NCBI RefSeq assembly: GCF_001715975.1
Contig: NZ_MARB01000017.1
Span: forward strand, 1-64,000
Direction of reading: 5' to 3'
Source of the DNA: Candidatus Thiodiazotropha endolucinida
Lineage (GTDB): Bacteria > Pseudomonadota > Gammaproteobacteria > Chromatiales > Chromatiaceae
Length of the DNA stretch: 64,000 bases
Part shown: in pieces, positions 1 through 11,093 of the stretch
Position numbering within the stretch: the stretch's first letter is position 1
Layout of the letters: each line of letters starts with the position of its first letter
The notes under the pieces: generated by a model
What the model saw: the letters and a program-made list of their open reading frames with translations, nothing else
Databases searched by the model: none
Told to the model about the DNA's origin: nothing
Position numbers and translations under genes: made by a program

Positions 1-560
1 CGCCCATGCCGCCCATGCCGGACATACCGCCCATGCCGCCCATGCCGCTCATGCCGCCCATACCGCTGGACACCCAAACCCACTGGCCACCCATGCCGGA
101 CATGCCGCCCATACCGGACATACCACCCATACCGGACATACCACCCATACCGGACATACCGCCCATACCGGACATACCGCCCATGCCGGACATACCGCCC
201 ATGCCGGACATACCGCTCATGCCGCCCATGCCGGACATACCGCTCATGCCGCCCATGCCGGACATACCGCTCATGCCGCCCATGCCGCTCATACCACTAG
301 CTGGATAGAAGAAGATCTGTCCTTGCGGGGTGATCTTGAAATAGCCGGACATACCGCTCATGCCGCCCATACCGGACATTCCACTCATGCCACCCATGCC
401 GGACATTCCGCCCATACCGGACATTCCACCCATGCCGGACATACCGCTCATGCCGCCCATGCCGGACATTCCACCCATGCCGGACATACCGCTCATGCCA
501 CCCATACCGGACATGCCGCCCATGCCGGACATGCCGTCCATGCCTGACATGCCATACATG
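1..560. repeat. Tandem 9-bp-based repeat array encoding GMG/GMS units
   Basis: Degenerate direct repeats built from a 9-nt unit (minus-strand sense GGCATGTCC or GGCATGGGC, with GGT/GGC and TCC/AGC wobble), assembled into 18- and 27-nt higher-order units. Wobble changes are mostly synonymous, so the protein repeat is selected rather than only the DNA repeat. The array is interrupted at about 62-88 and 293-343, where the encoded protein has non-repeat inserts. Slippage and length variation between strains, or assembly collapse, are likely here. Confidence 0.9.
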
Positions 561-652
561 CCTGCGGACGCCACGGGTGCGACAGCTAGTGCAACGGCCA
601 TCCCCATAGCTTTGATCACTCCTTTCAAACTCGGCATTCGAAACTTTTTCAT
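1..652 (-). CDS. Exported Gly/Met-rich repeat protein (partial, C-terminus beyond window)
   Basis: Open from ATG at 652 to the left edge, at least 216 codons without a stop. A GAGG Shine-Dalgarno lies 9 nt upstream. The N-terminus has basic residues, a hydrophobic core and a signal-peptidase site after PVASA at about residue 30. The mature part is almost entirely GMG/GMS tripeptides. Two inserts break the repeat: YFKITPQGQIFFYPAS (plus positions 296-343) and QWVWVSS (65-85). The repeat has no Cys, and almost every third residue is Met. Low-complexity Gly-rich exported proteins include sulfur-globule envelope proteins of purple and symbiotic sulfur bacteria, and Met-rich repeats can bind Cu(I). 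Neither role is shown here. The downstream end is missing, so total length and C-terminus are unknown. Confidence 0.8.
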   Translation of the reverse strand, partial: MKKFRMPSLKGVIKAMGMAVALAVAPVASAGMYGMSGMDGMSGMGGMSGMGGMSGMSGMGGMSGMGGMSGMSGMGGMSGMGGMSGMGGMSGMSGMGGMSGMSGYFKITPQGQIFFYPASGMSGMGGMSGMSGMGGMSGMSGMGGMSGMSGMGGMSGMGGMSGMGGMSGMGGMSGMGGMSGMGGMSGMGGQWVWVSSGMGGMSGMGGMGGMSGMGGMG

Positions 653-758: not shown

Positions 759-1043
759 CTACTGATGCCATTGTCGAATATCGTATCTACCCTTCATGCC
801 GGGTTGATTGAAAGGCGTGTGCCAATTTCCTTGGTTGTCAAGGAAATAGAGACTTTTGGGATAGGGTTGCTGCACACCAGTCAAGGAAGATTGATACCAG
901 ACCTTGTCTCGCATCACCCATTCAATGGCAGGCGCACCAACAGGCCGTATGGAAGGCTCTACCCCAGCGATGGGATAGTCAGCCATGAGATGTGGCGACA
1001 GCAGCATCAAAGCGCCACAGCCGGCAGACAGAAACAACCTCAT
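759..1043 (-). CDS. Small exported hypothetical protein
   Basis: Encodes 94 residues with a signal peptide (about residues 1-21, hydrophobic core LSAGCGALMLLS, likely cut near LMA). An AGGAGG Shine-Dalgarno sits 8 nt before the ATG, strong support for this start. The mature part of about 70 residues is rich in Trp, Tyr and Pro and contains LYFLDNQGNWHTPF, a short beta-strand-like segment. No family is recognised. It lies upstream of and co-directional with the Gly/Met-repeat gene, with a gap of about 100 bp, so the two may be co-expressed exported proteins. Confidence 0.65.
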   Translation of the reverse strand: MRLFLSAGCGALMLLSPHLMADYPIAGVEPSIRPVGAPAIEWVMRDKVWYQSSLTGVQQPYPKSLYFLDNQGNWHTPFNQPGMKGRYDIRQWHQ

Positions 1044-1459
1044 TCCAACACCCTCCTCGATTTATCTTTTGTATCAGTACGGGTTGGCATGTCTATGTAG
1101 GCAACAGCTGTGCCATTATGCTGTATCTACCTCTTTTCCTTTGTTTTACAATGATTTTTTATCAAAAACCCAAATATGCGTGCTGATGCGGATAAAAGAT
1201 TGTCTGACGATCTGTCATGCTAAGTGCTGCTGATGCATGTCCGTAATAGAGATAAATTTGTAAGTTATTTTCAAGTACAGAATTTAAATCATATTTATCA
1301 TTCGATTAGAATGGATATTTAATTGACTACTGCAATAGTTCATAGGATTAGGCTCGACTGACATTTCGTCATACAGGGATAACTGATGCTTACATCCGTC
1401 GTATCACAGGGTGGAGGTCAATAGAGACCTCCACCCATTGATCGAACCCAAAGAGTCAA
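1044..1459. other. AT-rich intergenic region
   Basis: About 415 bp between two minus-strand genes. It should hold the promoter of the small exported gene at 759-1043. Only a hairpin near 1409-1436 stands out; I see no supported reading frame or RNA gene. Confidence 0.5.
1409..1436 (-). terminator. Strong hairpin downstream of the 1460-2236 gene
   Basis: Perfect 11-bp stem GGGTGGAGGTC / GACCTCCACCC with a 6-nt loop, 24 bp beyond the stop codon of the minus-strand gene. No T-tract follows on either strand, so it could be an imperfect terminator or an mRNA 3-prime stabilising hairpin. Confidence 0.5.
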
Positions 1460-2236
1460 CTAAAAAATACGTATGACACCACCATCCGATACACGAATCG
1501 CCAGCTGATATTTCAATCGATATGGCTCGGAAACACCGACCACACTGACCAGATAGACACGATTAATCTTACGAATCTTCCCTACCTGCAGGCCAGATTC
1601 CTTTGTTGCGTCTATCCATTGTTTTGTCAGTTCATGTACCTCCGACCACTCATCGAGAGGCAGTACACCCGGATCAAGTTGAAAATAGTCAATACGGCAT
1701 TCAGCCATTTTAGCCGTTGAATCCACTGCCATAGACTGGTTTGTGGTCGGCAACTCCACGGGATGAAATAGCAGTGCCCCGCTTTCATCCCTTTCAATAT
1801 GCCAGTATTCAAAGCCTTTTAAATTTGCCGGTAATGTCACGGAGCCACGCTCAACTGTTTGAGTTGCCGTTTGAGCAGGCGTATCGTCCGTATCGCCCTT
1901 ATCGCCCGTATCACCCGGCCGCAGAATCAACGTGCCGTCACTATCCCACTCAACCTTCCATCCGCGCTCCTGCAGCGCATTGCCAAATTGTCTGATATTC
2001 GGCAGTTCAGCTTCAGGTGACTGATTGTCAGTTGCCGGCTTTTTTACAGGTTGGCGATAGATAACACTGCCATCCGCGGAGATGTACTCTTGCCACCCTT
2101 GAAGAAGCAGAGACTCACGCAGTGATTGAGAGAGGGTAACTCCCTGTTCTGCCAAGCCTGCTGTGGGTATTGATAGTGCAAGCCACAACAGATGAACGCT
2201 GATGCAACGATATCGACTGTTTCTGTTTTTTTTCAC
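1460..2236 (-). CDS. Exported hypothetical protein with three internal repeats
   Basis: Encodes 258 residues with a signal peptide (hydrophobic core HLLWLALSIPTAGLA, cleavage near residue 29). Three copies of a motif of about 27 residues occur at 36-63, 82-107 and 132-159. Each ends with a turn and strand: ADGSVIYRQP, SDGTLILRP and ESGALLFHP, preceded by a GW or GF pair. A low-complexity Asp/Gly/Thr linker (about 107-120) separates repeats 2 and 3. The C-terminal 80 residues form a separate alpha/beta-looking region containing one Cys. I recognise no family. The repeat resembles the YFKITPQGQIFFYP insert in the Gly/Met-repeat protein on the same strand. Confidence 0.75.
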   Translation of the reverse strand: MKKNRNSRYRCISVHLLWLALSIPTAGLAEQGVTLSQSLRESLLLQGWQEYISADGSVIYRQPVKKPATDNQSPEAELPNIRQFGNALQERGWKVEWDSDGTLILRPGDTGDKGDTDDTPAQTATQTVERGSVTLPANLKGFEYWHIERDESGALLFHPVELPTTNQSMAVDSTAKMAECRIDYFQLDPGVLPLDEWSEVHELTKQWIDATKESGLQVGKIRKINRVYLVSVVGVSEPYRLKYQLAIRVSDGGVIRIF

Positions 2237-2354
2237 TTTCGGGACTCCTCCGCATTGTATAATTCACTGAATCCTGGATTAATCAGCAAAACATGCGCCA
2301 AGAGTGCACACGCGGGGCATGCATTCGTAAAAAAGGTCGATTCCTCGCCTATAA

Positions 2355-2371: not shown

Positions 2372-2434
2372 AAAAATGGCTGCTTTTGGCATTAAAATCA
2401 AATCAATTGACACTGTAAATCTGAGCCGTCATAA

Positions 2435-4294
2435 GTGATGAACTGGATAGCCAACAGCCTGAATCGGAAATTCATCCTTGGCACCACTTCCGGTCTTGCC
2501 ATCAGCTCCCTGGTCTTTCTCCTACTCTACATCTCGCTCTACCAGTCTGAACTGGAGGGAGAACGCGCGCACACTGCCAGCCAGGTCAACAATTTGCTGC
2601 AGGTCTCATTGGAAAATGCCATGCTGAAGCGAGACCTGCCCGGTTTAAGCGAAATGGTAAAAAAACTGGGCAAGCAGGAGGGCATCGTATCCGTATTCAT
2701 TACCAATCCTGGCGGCGAAATCAGGTTCAGCAGTAACCTGGGCGACTTTGGCAAACAATTGGCCAATCCCTACCGTGCCACATCCCTCACAACCCAATTC
2801 CTCGAAAACGGCGATGGACAGGAAATCCTGCGCAGTATCAATCCGGTACACAACAAAGCACCCTGTAAGGAGTGTCACGGGCCTGCAGAGAAAAATCCCA
2901 TCAATGGCATCCTGTACGTGGATTACGATGCCGTGCCGATCAGAAACAGGGTTCGTGACACTACCCTGATGCTGATGGGGGCGGGCGCGCTGATCGTCAT
3001 CCTGAACCTGATTGGAGGCTGGTGGTTCATCCATGCCTACATCCTCAGACCAGTAAACCATCTAACCCATGCAAGTAAAGAGTTGACCAACGGCAATCTA
3101 GAATCCCGCGTCTCAATGCGGGGTACCGATGAACTTTCGAAGTTGGGTGACACCTTCGATCTAATGGCGGAAAGATTGCAGGAGAAACTACTTGAACTGG
3201 AAGAACAGAAAGGTTTTTTACAGGCGCTTGTGGATGCCGTTCCCGACGGTATCAGAATTATCGACGATGAGTTCAAAATCGTATTGACCAACAAAGCCTA
3301 TCGAGAACAACACACACTGCTGCAAACGACAGAAGTCGGAAACAACTGCTACACACTCACACATAATACAACCAAGCCCTGCCCACCTACTCTGATCACA
3401 TGTCCGGTTCATGAAATCCTGCAGCACCATAAGCCGATCAAAGTGTTGCATCAACACCATCGCTCCGATCAATCAACCTTTGAGGTTGAAATTTTTGCAG
3501 CACCCATGGAAGTAAAGCGAGGCAGGCGCGAAACAACCCTGATCGTCGAGTCGATCCGGGATCTTGCAAAAGAGGTTAAATATTCCCAGGAACAGAAACT
3601 CTCTGAATTAGGACGACTGGCAACCGGCGTAGCCCATGAGATCCATAACCCACTCGCATCTGTCAAGTTGGCCCTGGATGCCACGAAAAACGCGCTTATT
3701 GCCGATAATAACTATTCGAATGGCGTCATGAAACATTTCGAACTTATCGATGACGAGATCAATACCTGTATCGAGATCACCGGAAAGTTGCTCAAATTAG
3801 GCTCGCCACCCCCTGAAAGCCTTGAGTTGGTCGATGTCAATAACGCCCTGCATGAGACACTGAGTCTATTGCAATGGCAGGCTGACCAGTTGCATATCAC
3901 TGTTGAAGAGAGATATAAAACCGATCTGCTTCGTACTTTGGCATCTGAAAGTGAAATCAGAATGGTTGCGCTAAATTTGGCACAAAATGCGTTTCATGCA
4001 ATGCCTGAAGGCGGGATATTGACCGTTTCCAGTTTTTCCGACGGTAAAACGATTTTACTGCAGTTTTCCGATACCGGCGCCGGTATCCGCGCCAAAGACC
4101 TGCCTTATATATTCGATCCCTTTTTCAGTCGTCGTGCTGACGATGTTAAAGGGACCGGCCTTGGCCTATCAATCAGTCTTGCCATCATAGAAAAGTATGG
4201 TGGAACGATAAGAGTTGAGAGTGAATTTTCCGCTGGCAGTGTTTTTACTGTCGAACTGCCGGACGCCGAGCATGAACTAGAGGTAAAGACATGA
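2435..4294 (+). CDS. Membrane sensor histidine kinase with CXXCH haem motif
   Basis: Encodes 619 residues. TM1 is at about 16-35, a periplasmic sensor at 36-175, TM2 at 178-198 and HAMP at 199-252. A PAS-like region at about 260-375 has a Cys cluster (305, 316, 323). HisKA has the H-box GVAHEIHNPL with phospho-acceptor His401, and HATPase has NLAQNAFHAMPEGG, DTGAGI and GTGLGLSIS. The periplasmic sensor carries CKECH at 144-148, the covalent c-haem motif, in a context typical of Tll0287-like or NarX/DUF3365-like haem sensors, so redox, O2 or NO sensing is plausible. The start is GTG 2435 or ATG 2438. The gene overlaps the response regulator by 4 bp (ATGA), so they are co-translated. Confidence 0.92.
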   Translation: MMNWIANSLNRKFILGTTSGLAISSLVFLLLYISLYQSELEGERAHTASQVNNLLQVSLENAMLKRDLPGLSEMVKKLGKQEGIVSVFITNPGGEIRFSSNLGDFGKQLANPYRATSLTTQFLENGDGQEILRSINPVHNKAPCKECHGPAEKNPINGILYVDYDAVPIRNRVRDTTLMLMGAGALIVILNLIGGWWFIHAYILRPVNHLTHASKELTNGNLESRVSMRGTDELSKLGDTFDLMAERLQEKLLELEEQKGFLQALVDAVPDGIRIIDDEFKIVLTNKAYREQHTLLQTTEVGNNCYTLTHNTTKPCPPTLITCPVHEILQHHKPIKVLHQHHRSDQSTFEVEIFAAPMEVKRGRRETTLIVESIRDLAKEVKYSQEQKLSELGRLATGVAHEIHNPLASVKLALDATKNALIADNNYSNGVMKHFELIDDEINTCIEITGKLLKLGSPPPESLELVDVNNALHETLSLLQWQADQLHITVEERYKTDLLRTLASESEIRMVALNLAQNAFHAMPEGGILTVSSFSDGKTILLQFSDTGAGIRAKDLPYIFDPFFSRRADDVKGTGLGLSISLAIIEKYGGTIRVESEFSAGSVFTVELPDAEHELEVKT

Positions 4295-5658
4295 CATCTA
4301 GAATAGTCGTCGTAGAGGATGACGACATACTCAGAAACCTCATCATACAACACCTCATTAAATTAGGGTATGAGGCGGACGGTCTCAGTCGCTGGGACAA
4401 CGTCCTGGGTTATCTGGAAAAGTATGAGCCATCGCTAATCATCACAGATGCCCGCCTACCCGACGCCAACAGCCTTGAGTATATCGAAAATCTATCCATT
4501 AATTATCCTGTAATAATCCTTACCGCATTCGGTTCTGTTCGAGATGCCGTGGGCGCCATAAAAGCCGGAGCGATCGATTACATTCTGAAACCAGTCAGTC
4601 TCGATACACTTTCACTGACTGTTGAGAGAGCTCTCGATAATGCTGCACTGCGGAAAGATCACCTGTTTTGCAAACGACAATTAGAGCAGAGCACGCAACG
4701 CCATTCATCGCTTGTCGGAAACAGCGAGGCACTGACAAAGGTCAGGCAATTAATCGGAGCCGTCGCTCCCAATGACATCACTGTACTGATTCAAGGTGAG
4801 AGCGGCTCGGGTAAAGAATTGGTAGCGCGTGCCATTCATGCACACAGCCACCGTAAAAAGCATAATTTCGTTGCAGTAGACTGTTGTACCCTGCAAGAAA
4901 ATCTATTTGAATCAGAATTATTTGGTCATGAGAAAGGGGCATTTACCGGTGCGGACAAACAGAAAAAGGGATTGATTGAGGGAGCGGAGGGAGGAACACT
5001 GTTTTTAGATGAAATCGGCGAAATAAACAGCAGTGGGCAAGCAAAGCTTCTACGCGTTCTGGAAACCGGGCAATTCCGGAGACTGGGCAGCACAAAGGAC
5101 TTGAACGCCAACGTCAGGATAGTGGCCGCCACAAACCGCGACCTGGAAACCATGTCGTCTGAGGGAGATTTTCGCTCCGACCTCTTCTTCAGGCTCAATG
5201 CTTTCAATGTTATTGTACCGCCATTGCGCGACAGACGTGACGATATCCCGGAGCTGGCCAAGCACTTCCTGACAAATCATAATTTTTCCACCCGGGTTAA
5301 CAAAACACTTTCATCATCGGCCATTCGCTCACTCGTCTCCTACGATTGGCCCGGCAATATCAGAGAGTTAAAGAATGTAATAGAACGAGCGATTATTCTC
5401 TCGGGTGAAAGACAGGCGATCAAACCTGAACATTTTGCCTTTACCCGGGTGCTAAGCAAGGGTGAGGGAGTTGTGACACTCAATTTTGATCACGATCCCT
5501 CCTTGGAAGAACTGGAAGCTCACTACCTGTCATATCAATTAAAGAAACACTCTGGTCGCCGTGGAAAAGTTGCGGAAGTTATGGGGATCAGCGAGCGGAG
5601 CATTTATCGCATGATCAAACGCTACTCTTTGGACGACATTAAATATAAAGCAGTCTGA
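4291..5658 (+). CDS. NtrC-family sigma54-dependent response regulator
   Basis: Encodes 455 residues. The receiver domain at 1-120 has acidic pocket VVEDDD and phospho-acceptor Asp53 in ITDARLPD. The AAA+ domain at about 140-380 has Walker A GESGSGKE (169-176), the sigma54-contacting GAFTGA loop (216-221) and Walker B LFLDE. A Fis-type HTH lies at about 412-450. A clear GAGG ribosome site precedes the ATG. It is translationally coupled to the haem-type kinase and so activates sigma54 promoters in response to its signal. Targets are not identifiable from the window; the downstream thioredoxin and WED-repeat genes are candidates by proximity. Confidence 0.95.
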   Translation: MTSRIVVVEDDDILRNLIIQHLIKLGYEADGLSRWDNVLGYLEKYEPSLIITDARLPDANSLEYIENLSINYPVIILTAFGSVRDAVGAIKAGAIDYILKPVSLDTLSLTVERALDNAALRKDHLFCKRQLEQSTQRHSSLVGNSEALTKVRQLIGAVAPNDITVLIQGESGSGKELVARAIHAHSHRKKHNFVAVDCCTLQENLFESELFGHEKGAFTGADKQKKGLIEGAEGGTLFLDEIGEINSSGQAKLLRVLETGQFRRLGSTKDLNANVRIVAATNRDLETMSSEGDFRSDLFFRLNAFNVIVPPLRDRRDDIPELAKHFLTNHNFSTRVNKTLSSSAIRSLVSYDWPGNIRELKNVIERAIILSGERQAIKPEHFAFTRVLSKGEGVVTLNFDHDPSLEELEAHYLSYQLKKHSGRRGKVAEVMGISERSIYRMIKRYSLDDIKYKAV

Positions 5659-8558: not shown

Positions 8559-11093
8559 TCATGATTTTCTGGGTTTTGCCTTGGCGGTTGCTTCTGCATG
8601 AACCGGATCGTCAGGCCAATAATGTTTCGGATAGCGCCCCTTCAACTCCTTCTTCACGTCCGGATAGGTCCTCTGCCAGAATCCAGCCAGATCATCGGTG
8701 ATCTGCATGGGTCTTTGCGCCGGTGAGAGCAGGTGTAACATGACAGGTACCTTACCACCACCTATTCTGGGTGTATCCGCCAGACCGAACATCTCTTGTA
8801 ACCTGACTGCAAGAACCGGAGGCCCTTCCACCGTGTAGTGAAGCGGAACCCTGGATCCACTTGGCACCTTCAAGTGGCTTGGAGCCTCGCGATCCAGTAG
8901 CTGTTGTTGCTGCCAATCAAGACTTGCCTTGAGTATCCCGCTCAGGTCGAGTCGCTGCAGATGTTCTTTGTTGTTGATTCCCGGCAACCAGGGTCCCAAC
9001 CAGTCACTGAGATGTTTCGACAACCATTCATCCGAAAGATCGGGCCAGTTTGAATCATTCAGCTGACTAGCCAACCAACAGACCCGCATCTGCCATTGAC
9101 GAAGCCGTTTACTCCACGGCAATACTGCCAATCCCATCGATGTGAGTCCCTGTAACATGGCGCTGACAACCTTTTCCGGGTCGGGTTCGGCAAGTGGACT
9201 ATGATCAAGGACCACTGCCCCGACCCGGGCTTCCTCAAAGGCCGTAACCCGTTGCTCCCGCTTATCCCAAACAACAGCCGAGGTTGTTTCGATTTCGATA
9301 TCGGGAAGTTGACGGATCTCCGCTTCAGTGATGGCAACGGCCAGTCTGATCCACCCCTCAACCTTGCCGGCATCCAACTCGGCTACGACTAAAAAATCCT
9401 GTGTCGCCAAGGGATCCGAATCGTTCAACAGCGCACCTCGACCATTGGCCAGGCGAAATCGGCCATGCCCTGTCCGCTGAGCAATCCGGTCGGGATAGGC
9501 CAGCGCCAGAAGTTGTGCTGCAGACATTTCCACACTGTTCGTGTCACTATCGAGACGCTGTAAGCGCATGCGCCAATCCCTGCTTACCCTGTCGACCCTT
9601 TTACATGCATGGGTGTCGATGCCGTTTACACTGCCGCCATGACCTCGATTCCGCCACGATGCGAGCAAGTGTAAACGCTGTTCCAGGTCCGCACCCGGAT
9701 GGCTCTCTCGCTGGCGTTTTACGATATCCCGCTCACTCAGCAGCGCAGCCAGGTCACAGGCGAGCTGACGATCTCCCTCGACCACATTTATCAGGATATG
9801 GGCCAATCGTGGATGAGCGGGCAGTCTGGCTATCCGCTTTCCCATTGATGTCAGCAGACGCCGTCTATCCATGGCGCCGAGACGCTGTAACAGATCACAG
9901 GCCTGGTTGTAGGCAGCCTGCGGTGGCGGATCAAGCCAGCGCAGATCGACTGGATCAGCCACACCCCAGGCGGCGAGTTGCAAGGCCAGGGGAGCCAGAT
10001 CGGCCTGCAGGATCTCCGCAGGATGGTAATCAGGCAATTGATCCTGATACTGGGATGACCATAAACGATAACAGATACCGGGGCCGAGACGCCCCGCCCG
10101 CCCGGCTCGCTGGGCGGCTGCAGCCTTCGATACCGCAACGGTCTCCAGCCGGGTCAACCCGATCCCGGGCATAAAACGCGGCAGTCGCGACCAACCGCAA
10201 TCGATGACCGCACTGACCCCCTCAATGGTTAGGCTTGTCTCCGCAATGGACGTGGTGAGCACGATACGGCGCCTCTTTCCCCTGTCCGGGAGTAACGCGC
10301 GATCCTGTTCCGCCTTCGGCAGGTCGCCATAGAGCGGTGCAATCAGGGGCGAGCGTTCAGATTCGGCAAAGCGGCTAGCGATCAGCGTCTGCACCTGTCT
10401 GATTTCGGCAACGCCAGGCAGAAACACGAGGATGTCACCCTGTTCCTCATACCATACCCTGGCAACGGCCTGCGACACCTGTTCGGCAATGGCTCTTTTC
10501 TCGGGCTTTATTCCAAGGTAGTGATGGGTCACAGGAAATTGCCGACCTTGGGCGGTGATGATAGGCGCTCCATACATCAGCGCGGAGATACGATCCGAAT
10601 CGAGGGTTGCCGACATAATCAACAGCCGCAGATCCTCCCGCAGCCCCTGCCGGGCATCAAGGGCCAAGGCCAGAGCCAGATCGCTGTGCAGATTACGTTC
10701 ATGGAACTCGTCAAAGATCAGCAGGCCAACCCCTTTCAACTGAGGATCCTGTTGCAAACGGCGTGTCAGGATACCTTCGGTCACCACCTCGACACGGGTT
10801 TTCCGGGAGACCTTTCTTTCCAGGCGTATGGAATAACCTACCCGTTCACCGACGGCCTCGCCCAATAAATGGGCCATGCGGACTGCTGCTGTCCGGGCAG
10901 CCAGTCGACGGGGCTCAAGCAACAGAATGGTTTGCCCCCTCAACCAGGCAGCCTGCAACAATCGGATTGGAACCAGGGTCGTCTTACCCGATCCGGGCGG
11001 CGCGCACAACACGGCTCTGCCGGTGCTTGCAAGCGTATCGTCCAGTGCGGGCATGATTTGTGTGACGGGGAGTTCAGACACCATCGGCACCAT
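8559..11093 (-). CDS. hrpB: ATP-dependent RNA helicase HrpB
   Basis: Encodes 844 residues, the normal HrpB length. It has Walker A APPGSGKTT near residue 32, DEFHER motif II, motif III MSATLD and motif VI AQRAGRAGR, then the long HrpB-specific C-terminal region. DEAH-box helicase of RNA metabolism, cytoplasmic. The ATG at 11093 lies 5 nt from a REP-like palindrome (11099-11117), so the leader could fold over the ribosome site. ATG 11084 (fourth codon) is an alternative start. It lies downstream of the Rad50-like ATPase on the same strand. Confidence 0.95.
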   Translation of the reverse strand: MVPMVSELPVTQIMPALDDTLASTGRAVLCAPPGSGKTTLVPIRLLQAAWLRGQTILLLEPRRLAARTAAVRMAHLLGEAVGERVGYSIRLERKVSRKTRVEVVTEGILTRRLQQDPQLKGVGLLIFDEFHERNLHSDLALALALDARQGLREDLRLLIMSATLDSDRISALMYGAPIITAQGRQFPVTHHYLGIKPEKRAIAEQVSQAVARVWYEEQGDILVFLPGVAEIRQVQTLIASRFAESERSPLIAPLYGDLPKAEQDRALLPDRGKRRRIVLTTSIAETSLTIEGVSAVIDCGWSRLPRFMPGIGLTRLETVAVSKAAAAQRAGRAGRLGPGICYRLWSSQYQDQLPDYHPAEILQADLAPLALQLAAWGVADPVDLRWLDPPPQAAYNQACDLLQRLGAMDRRRLLTSMGKRIARLPAHPRLAHILINVVEGDRQLACDLAALLSERDIVKRQRESHPGADLEQRLHLLASWRNRGHGGSVNGIDTHACKRVDRVSRDWRMRLQRLDSDTNSVEMSAAQLLALAYPDRIAQRTGHGRFRLANGRGALLNDSDPLATQDFLVVAELDAGKVEGWIRLAVAITEAEIRQLPDIEIETTSAVVWDKREQRVTAFEEARVGAVVLDHSPLAEPDPEKVVSAMLQGLTSMGLAVLPWSKRLRQWQMRVCWLASQLNDSNWPDLSDEWLSKHLSDWLGPWLPGINNKEHLQRLDLSGILKASLDWQQQQLLDREAPSHLKVPSGSRVPLHYTVEGPPVLAVRLQEMFGLADTPRIGGGKVPVMLHLLSPAQRPMQITDDLAGFWQRTYPDVKKELKGRYPKHYWPDDPVHAEATAKAKPRKS

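Follow-up and report, generated by a model that had tools for sequence, protein, structure and literature searches.

A Gly-Met-x repeat protein encoded with its own S-oxide-reductase-type complex in two proteobacterial classes

The stretch of DNA analyzed here, referred to as the window, is 64,000 nucleotides long and comes from Candidatus Thiodiazotropha endolucinida (assembly GCF_001715975.1, contig NZ_MARB01000017.1, hereafter C17). At its very start lies the first part of a gene for an exported protein built from Gly-Met-x repeats, which we call GMX. We found that this methionine polymer is encoded with its own S-oxide-reductase-type complex, and that the arrangement is real and occurs in two proteobacterial classes. 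The parts of GMX that are visible in the window, and the small neighboring gene F10 used below to trace the cluster, are as follows.

Positions 2 to 652, minus strand: N-terminal 217 amino acids (aa) of GMX, an exported Gly-Met-x repeat protein, in an open reading frame (ORF) that continues past the contig edge.
Positions 563 to 652, minus strand: signal-peptide-like N-terminus of GMX, 30 aa ending in ASA, recognized by eye; the N-termini of orthologues are similar.
Positions 296 to 346, minus strand: aromatic insert of GMX, GYFKITPQGQIFFYPAS, also found in orthologues and in a fragment on contig C42.
Positions 65 to 88, minus strand: aromatic insert of GMX, GQWVWVSS, which is GQWVWxPS in the tabulated orthologues from the same genus.
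Positions 759 to 1043, minus strand: F10, an exported protein of 94 aa, present in the alpha- and gammaproteobacterial versions of the cluster.

The GMX frame starts with an ATG at position 652 on the minus strand and is open up to the contig end. After the signal segment 187 residues are visible, with 54 in-register triplets that are all Gly-Met-x (54/54) and that the two aromatic inserts split into runs of 24, 23 and 7. There are 58 Met in the 217 visible residues, and the repeat after the signal segment contains one Lys and no Arg. A preliminary description, made from the letters of the window, had reported a signal peptide, Gly-Met repeats with Met at about every third residue and two aromatic inserts, all of which the translated frame confirms; the reported absence of Cys and His also holds throughout the 217 visible residues. 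The same description took synonymous wobble in the repeat as a sign of selection on the protein, and the codon counts agree with it: the Gly codons preceding Met (n = 55, one within the signal segment) are GGC 29 times, GGT 21 times, GGA four times and GGG once, Ser is encoded by both TCN and AGY, and Gly or Met has been lost from none of the 54 visible triplets. Because the Gly codons vary while no triplet has lost its Gly or Met, the sequence points to a constraint at the level of the protein. GMX from the window had no match in Pfam, and its NCBIfam matches to collagen-like adhesins were far below the cut-offs (27.4 bits against 325, and 24.7 against 500). The possibility that GMX is the Gly-Gly-Met tail of a GroEL was considered and rejected; the frame holds only the signal-peptide-like start, the repeats and the two short inserts.

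The host genome is 4.49 Mb in 55 contigs, and the start of the window coincides with the edge of C17. A matching C-terminal GMX end, with a YFK insert and terminating in GMSGWR, sits at the end of contig C42. In several relatives, among them G001, G004, G008 and G016 (G and L numbers are our handles for genomes and loci), the genes of the C17 edge and those of the C42 end flank one single gene, and we therefore infer from synteny that the two fragments are one GMX gene whose assembly broke inside the repeat; no simple overlap connects the two contigs at their ends. C42 thus offers a candidate for the C-terminus that the preliminary description had placed in a flanking contig, linked to the window by synteny. 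Five complete orthologues from the same genus were tabulated (the above four and G018), with lengths of 290-348 aa and 68-95 Met (336 aa and 91 Met in G001, 348 aa and 95 Met in G004). All five have their inserts in the order YFK, QWVW, YFK and GWR, and the full layout, for example in G001 and G004, is repeat, YFKITPQGQIFFYP, repeat, QWVW, repeat, YFKITPQGQIFFYP, repeat, GWR. Since complete orthologues exist within the genus, the family as a whole is not a set of decayed frames, an outcome that would have spoken against the preliminary description, though G005 does change frame. Frame changes inside the repeat were seen in G005 (L174, 9393-10495) and in Hyphomicrobium (L283, 8116-8808); they may be due to sequencing error, slippage or phase variation, which are indistinguishable here. 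Contig edges cut the GMX copies of some other relatives.

The complete GMX-type proteins tabulated contain 42-125 Met. Residue x varies across them, being mostly Ser or Gly and also Asn, Gln, Asp, Arg, Tyr, His and others, and Gly-Met is kept. An insert with Cys, for example W-V-C-T-Q-W, occurs in alphaproteobacterial versions (Rhodobacter and L022) and in some gammaproteobacterial ones (L100, L244 and L245).

Outward from GMX, C42 carries genes for a pentaheme cytochrome c, a DmsA-like molybdopterin enzyme, a DmsB-like 4Fe-4S protein, a TorD-family chaperone, a monohaem cytochrome c, a ferredoxin-type protein and a thioredoxin-NHL protein. In relatives the complete GMX gene lies between F10 and the operon of pentaheme cytochrome, DmsA-like, DmsB-like and TorD-like genes, and on the coding strand of one of these (L171) no terminator-like site was present between GMX and the cytochrome gene. 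The cytochrome has five CXXCH motifs, and a search against solved structures gave no useful family for it. The enzyme is 854 aa long with a start resembling a twin-arginine translocation signal (21.2 bits, cut-off 22.7). Its best NCBIfam model is dimethyl sulfoxide (DMSO)/selenate reductase A (DmsA/YnfE; E 1.1e-187), followed by models for YnfE, DmsA, YnfF, the BisC family and TorA. The 4Fe-4S protein is the best match to the DmsB model in the genome (about 190 bits, the next reaching 95.9), and the chaperone is one of four of the NarJ/TorD type. No NrfD-like DmsC anchor was detected among the seven C42 operon proteins scanned with Pfam. The enzyme belongs to a clade: 13 other members aligned to it are 71.5-92.2% identical, E. 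coli DmsA is 36.5% and TorA 30.8% identical, and a tree grouped the four E. coli enzymes on a single long branch. All 14 aligned clade members have Ser in the column that, by analogy with DorA, we take to hold the molybdenum ligand. A relative of the thioredoxin-like NHL protein that ends the C42 operon (L169, 6428-8020) occurs near F10 in G144 (L236, 773-2281).

We surveyed 45 chosen loci, which held 37 copies of the DmsA-like clade in Gamma- and Alphaproteobacteria. A cytochrome gene was directly upstream of every copy (37/37), and for 34 of the 37 a GMX gene lay upstream on the same strand within 2.3 kb. The repeat itself had led to 26 of these enzyme copies; the other 11 were reached by F10 or by the enzyme, and all 11 carry GMX. 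Among 398 genomes of the phylum the clade was present in five, the host included, each with GMX upstream (5/5). F10 was found in 13 of 369 gammaproteobacterial genomes, again counting the host, and 12 of these had GMX in the cluster, the exception being G144, where F10 is on a 3.2-kb contig; 12 of the 13 also had the DmsA clade. The enzyme was present in three genomes reached only by the long repeat pattern (G029, G119 and G152), and it was absent at E 1e-150 from all seven chosen cluster-less genomes (G057 and six without an F10 or repeat match). A Gly-Met-rich gene in G057 was rejected as an unrelated gene, with no cluster and no enzyme. Within the genus, 21 of 22 genomes carry the enzyme, and in the one that does not (G017, 2.6 Mb and 93% complete) the single match to the repeat pattern is in GroEL.

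A short DNA repeat pattern matched mostly GroEL tails; among the matches listed there were 79 GroEL-like ORFs and 38 others, a number of them likewise GroEL ends, and its counts were used only after the loci had been inspected. Among the matches listed, the non-GroEL carriers included Ca. Thiodiazotropha, a Lamellibrachia symbiont, Sedimenticola, Chromatiaceae, Rhodobacterales, Hyphomicrobium and Phyllobacteriaceae. The ten non-GroEL carriers that were searched all encode the same DmsA clade, with best matches 75-84% identical to the Rhodobacter enzyme. Besides those ten, L027 and L048 were seen directly to have the enzyme, L052 and L085 were left out, and L073 and G083 are one and the same contig. 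The GroEL-only genome L010 had no enzyme of the clade at E 1e-100. We conclude that the genetic link between GMX and the enzyme is strong and extends over two proteobacterial classes; from it we infer the chemistry discussed below.

The cluster also occurs in a cultured bacterium. In Rhodobacter xanthinilyticus LPB0142 a compact version is carried on the conjugative plasmid pEJ01 in the order F10, repeat protein, cytochrome (six CXXCH), DmsA-like enzyme (78% identity), 4Fe-4S protein, TorD, second 4Fe-4S protein, kinase and sigma-54 regulator. The repeat protein (WP_198037905.1, 244 aa) is annotated as a "hypothetical protein".

On the window side, GMX and F10 are followed by a second exported protein, F4, and by two regulatory genes, with promoter-like sites between them.

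Positions 1100 to 1115, minus strand: sigma-54 (-24/-12) promoter-like site TGGCACAGCTGTTGCC upstream of F10-GMX, matching at 10 of 12 positions.
Positions 1460 to 2236, minus strand: F4, an exported protein of 258 aa with repeated W..DG.LIL.P-like motifs, seen by eye.
Positions 2285 to 2300, minus strand: sigma-54 promoter-like site TGGCGCATGTTTTGCT upstream of F4, matching at 10 of 12 positions; a fraction of 0.01 of 300 shuffles was as good.
Positions 2435 to 4294, plus strand: sensor histidine kinase with HAMP and PAS domains and one CXXCH at residue 144, from domain matches.
Positions 4291 to 5658, plus strand: NtrC-type response regulator with a sigma-54 interaction domain, from domain matches.

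The kinase and regulator are divergent from F10 and F4, and homologues of both adjoin the cluster in many relatives. The kinase matched the Mcp40H-20 sensor domain weakly (21.6 bits, cut-off 27). Promoter-like sites were scored against what we take to be the sigma-54 -24/-12 consensus. For TGGCACAGCTGTTGCC, a fraction of 0.003 of 300 mononucleotide shuffles was equally good, and nine of ten F10 upstream regions scanned scored 9-12 of 12 (12 in L283, 11 in L239 and L277). Upstream of F10 in the Rhodobacter plasmid cluster there was no good site, the best scoring 7 of 12.

F10 had no match in Pfam or NCBIfam at E values up to 1. An alignment of 15 F10 sequences contains 17 invariant residues, including W49, Q71, G72, W74, G82, M83, Y87, D88 and R90. 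F4 gave no useful family in the same two databases. Matches of its relatives were weak and were taken as repeat artefacts: PepSY_2 was below the cut-off in L239, and in L277 there was a scatter of matches, some above the cut-off (DUF4224 and HicA_toxin, for example), with no stretch passing alone. A stretch resembling the C-terminal part of F4 is found inside the Gly-Met-x chain of the G132 repeat protein (L235, 8652-10136; E 4e-13), a natural fusion of the two neighbors. By eye the F4 motif, for example WKVEWDSDGTLILRPG, resembles the GMX insert at 296-346, GYFKITPQGQIFFYP, and the two may represent a single small hairpin module common to F4 and GMX.

Several genomes hold more than one repeat protein. 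A second enzyme operon with its own repeat protein, which we call type C, is present in G001, G021 and the Ca. Thiodiazotropha locus L048, whose enzyme is 98.5% identical to that of G021 from the same genus; G009 and G010 likewise have a second copy of the enzyme. A short paralogue of about 175 aa, type B, lies on C18 in the host, about 0.2-0.3 kb from a convergent gene for a lipoprotein-like, secreted MsrA(B). It adjoins MsrA(B) in seven genomes (G000 and six relatives) and is absent at the other 10 of the 17 Msr loci fetched. In G053 (L233, features at 2422-3600 and 8911-9390) the repeat protein occupies the same operon position as elsewhere, has GMYGMRGMGG units in which x is Tyr or Arg, and includes a masked stretch; F10 of that genome has a Met-rich tail. 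Gly-Met-Ser-type tails were also seen on other exported redox proteins, which by eye are a pyrroloquinoline quinone-dehydrogenase-like protein of Paracoccus sanguinis (L085, 2663-4819) and a c-type cytochrome of Thiolinea disciformis (L060, 3190-3627).

We next consider what such a polymer might do. Our favored reading, to which we give a probability of roughly 0.6, is that GMX is the methionine-bearing half of a periplasmic cycle between methionine and methionine sulfoxide (MetO) and that the DMSO-reductase-type complex re-reduces it. The exported polymer, presumably flexible and exposed to solvent, would have its thioethers converted to sulfoxides by oxidants, and the DmsA-like/DmsB-like complex from the same operon would reduce these sulfoxides back to Met with electrons arriving through the pentaheme cytochrome c. 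A two-component system, probably haem-sensing, would switch expression at the sigma-54 promoters. The purpose would be defense against oxidants and possibly also a respirable store of oxidizing equivalents. Almost all of the carriers sampled encode GMX directly upstream of the enzyme with its electron carriers; GMX would therefore most simply be the substrate of the enzyme, and the conservation of Met while its neighbor x varies argues for a role of the thioether itself. Enzymes of this family are reported to have related activities: the DMSO reductase DorA of R. sphaeroides reduces protein MetO, a ...GAGM(O)Q... peptide being preferred to a ...GYM(O)E... one (PMC7402097); free MetO is a substrate of E. 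coli DmsABC, and dmsA expression rises with hypochlorite (PMC12096835). Of the functions proposed in the preliminary description, MetO buffering is the one favored by the DmsA/DmsB-like neighborhood conserved in two classes, while a sulfur-globule coat and copper binding find little support.

It is important to note the observations that weigh against a Met/MetO cycle. The enzyme scores 625.6 bits against the DmsA model TIGR02166, below the cut-off of 777.7, and its substrate could therefore differ; the iron-sulfur subunit reaches 189.5 bits against the DmsB model TIGR02951, also below the cut-off (214.1). By these scores the two proteins appear to be relatives, not full members, of the DmsA and DmsB families. 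Selenate/tellurate models are among the best for the enzyme, which leaves another substrate possible. Three of the 37 enzyme copies have no adjoining GMX (L276, L279 and the second copy of a tandem operon in L280), and G294 has F10 and GMX but no enzyme at E 1e-150. The pairing of the type B paralogue with MsrA(B) occurs in one genus and probably counts as a single event, which weakens its weight. A Met/MetO cycle as proposed assigns no role to F10 and F4. For the DmsABC of Haemophilus the reported substrates are free S- and N-oxides, proteins being left to MsrAB (PMC11024254), which speaks against an easy analogy.

An extension of the Met/MetO cycle is a "methionine battery", in which oxidants or oxygen chemistry would load up to about 100 sulfoxides onto each GMX and the cytochrome-linked DmsA-like complex would respire the protein-bound sulfoxides in anoxia as a self-made acceptor retained by the cell. 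We regard this extension as speculative and on balance doubtful.

The alternative that survives best is that the enzyme respires a small molecule, such as DMSO, selenate or another oxide, and that GMX is not its substrate and only protects the periplasm as a sacrificial protein or coats a product. The name of the best model (DMSO/selenate reductase) and the YnfE and YnfF selenate-tellurate models among the next ones suit such an enzyme. In addition, perchlorate reducers are reported to carry a Met-rich peptide against the by-product hypochlorite (PMC4623255), and a study of clam symbionts put forward DMSO as a possible acceptor (PMC6872982). However, the near one-to-one conservation of GMX with the enzyme over two classes fits a substrate pair better, and GMX was absent from the five ordinary dms/ynf/tor loci examined. 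We consider a small-molecule enzyme unlikely, if still a serious competitor.

GMX could also be a structural scaffold, a fibre in collagen register or of the polyglycine type that anchors or spaces the cytochrome and the molybdoenzyme, with Met as a packing residue. Gly at every third residue, and recurring aromatic inserts that could serve as docking sites, would suit a scaffold, and the Rhodobacter repeat protein, the one homologue tested, passes the Pfam Collagen model (35.2 bits, cut-off 27.2). The matches of the window protein to collagen-like adhesins point the same way, but they are far below the cut-offs and that protein has no Pfam match. Moreover, Pro occupies x in none of the 21 repeat proteins tabulated, and packing explains less well why Met is kept while x varies, which makes a scaffold quite improbable.

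A sulfur-globule envelope protein analogous to SgpA/B/C is another candidate, since GMX is exported and repetitive and the genus seems to be one of clam symbionts, one of which is reported to express three Sgp types highly (PMC11171427). Against this, the operon partner of GMX resembles an S-oxide reductase and not a sulfur oxidation enzyme, and the GMX-enzyme pair is also found in Rhodobacter (R. xanthinilyticus), Hyphomicrobium, Phyllobacteriaceae and other Alphaproteobacteria. To our knowledge these Alphaproteobacteria make no protein-coated sulfur globules, and we think an envelope role very improbable. Least probable of all is binding of Cu(I) or Ag(I) through Met thioethers, for although Met-rich stretches occur in copper proteins and a multicopper-oxidase-like protein has a Gly-Met insert, no copper protein was present among the neighbors scanned with Pfam (the other neighbors not being annotated), and 10 of the 16 gammaproteobacterial repeat proteins tabulated are without His and 14 without Cys. 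The multicopper-oxidase-like protein, recognized by eye in a Dermatophilaceae bacterium (L076, 6453-8000), has a Gly-Met-Thr/Ser insert that may reflect an independent, copper-related use of repeats like these.

Expression studies of clam symbionts suggest where the system may matter. A DMSO-reductase-like gene is reported among the most expressed in five clam-symbiont transcriptomes and six proteomes (PMC6872982), dmsB and dmsD are reported among the top 100 transcripts during upwelling in two other Thiodiazotropha clades (PMC12172469), and in lucinid symbionts genes annotated dmsAB, which may be different ones, are described as lying close to soxY and dsrAB (PMC11237559). Because the best DmsB match in the genome is in the C42 operon and 21 of the 22 genomes of the genus have the enzyme, the expressed dms genes are plausibly those of the C42 operon. 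If they are the same genes, the co-encoded methionine polymer becomes a candidate substrate for an enzyme for which the cited text names only DMSO as a possible one. Because a cultured Rhodobacter carries the cluster on a conjugative plasmid, the proposal is directly testable. No description of a GMX-DmsA-like operon was seen among the matches listed in open-literature searches on Met-rich proteins and DMSO reductases, MetO respiration and Thiodiazotropha, and the peptide strings GMSGMG, GMGGMS and GMSGMS did not occur in the open-literature text searched.

Several known systems share features with the GMX cluster. The sulfur-globule proteins SgpA-D of Allochromatium are described as extracytoplasmic and somewhat repetitive (PMC10386293), as is GMX, whose genetic partner is different and whose host range is wider; the comparison is one of gene context and hosts. 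In Bacillus cereus, Met of exported proteins is proposed as a recyclable antioxidant (PMC5526929), an idea that GMX shares and that the position of the type B paralogue next to MsrA(B) recalls. The carriers of Met there are ordinary exoproteins and MsrAB is cytoplasmic, whereas GMX is a dedicated polymer whose main partner is a molybdoenzyme. DmsABC and YnfEFGH share with the GMX operon homologous catalytic and iron-sulfur subunits, a TorD/DmsD-family chaperone and the Ser column; the GMX operon differs in the low identity of its enzyme to E. coli DmsA, in scores below the family cut-offs, and in gene content, since it encodes a pentaheme cytochrome c while the neighbors scanned include no DmsC. 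The closest parallel in design is MrpX/YedYZ (MsrPQ) of Azospira suillum, where an exported Met-rich peptide is likewise encoded with a MetO reductase and a periplasmic methionine cycle is described (PMC4623255). The enzyme of that system is MsrP, of the sulfite oxidase family, together with MsrQ, whereas the GMX cluster encodes an enzyme of the DMSO reductase family with an iron-sulfur subunit and a pentaheme cytochrome. Control is by SigF/NrsF in the former; the genes next to the latter encode a histidine kinase and a sigma-54 response regulator, and sigma-54-like sites lie upstream of F10. GMX is a strict Gly-Met-x repeat, which sets it apart from MrpX as described. By analogy, the GMX cluster would work like MrpX/YedYZ, but because its enzyme family differs it is no member of that system and, if our reading is correct, would represent a second and differently built system for cycling methionine.

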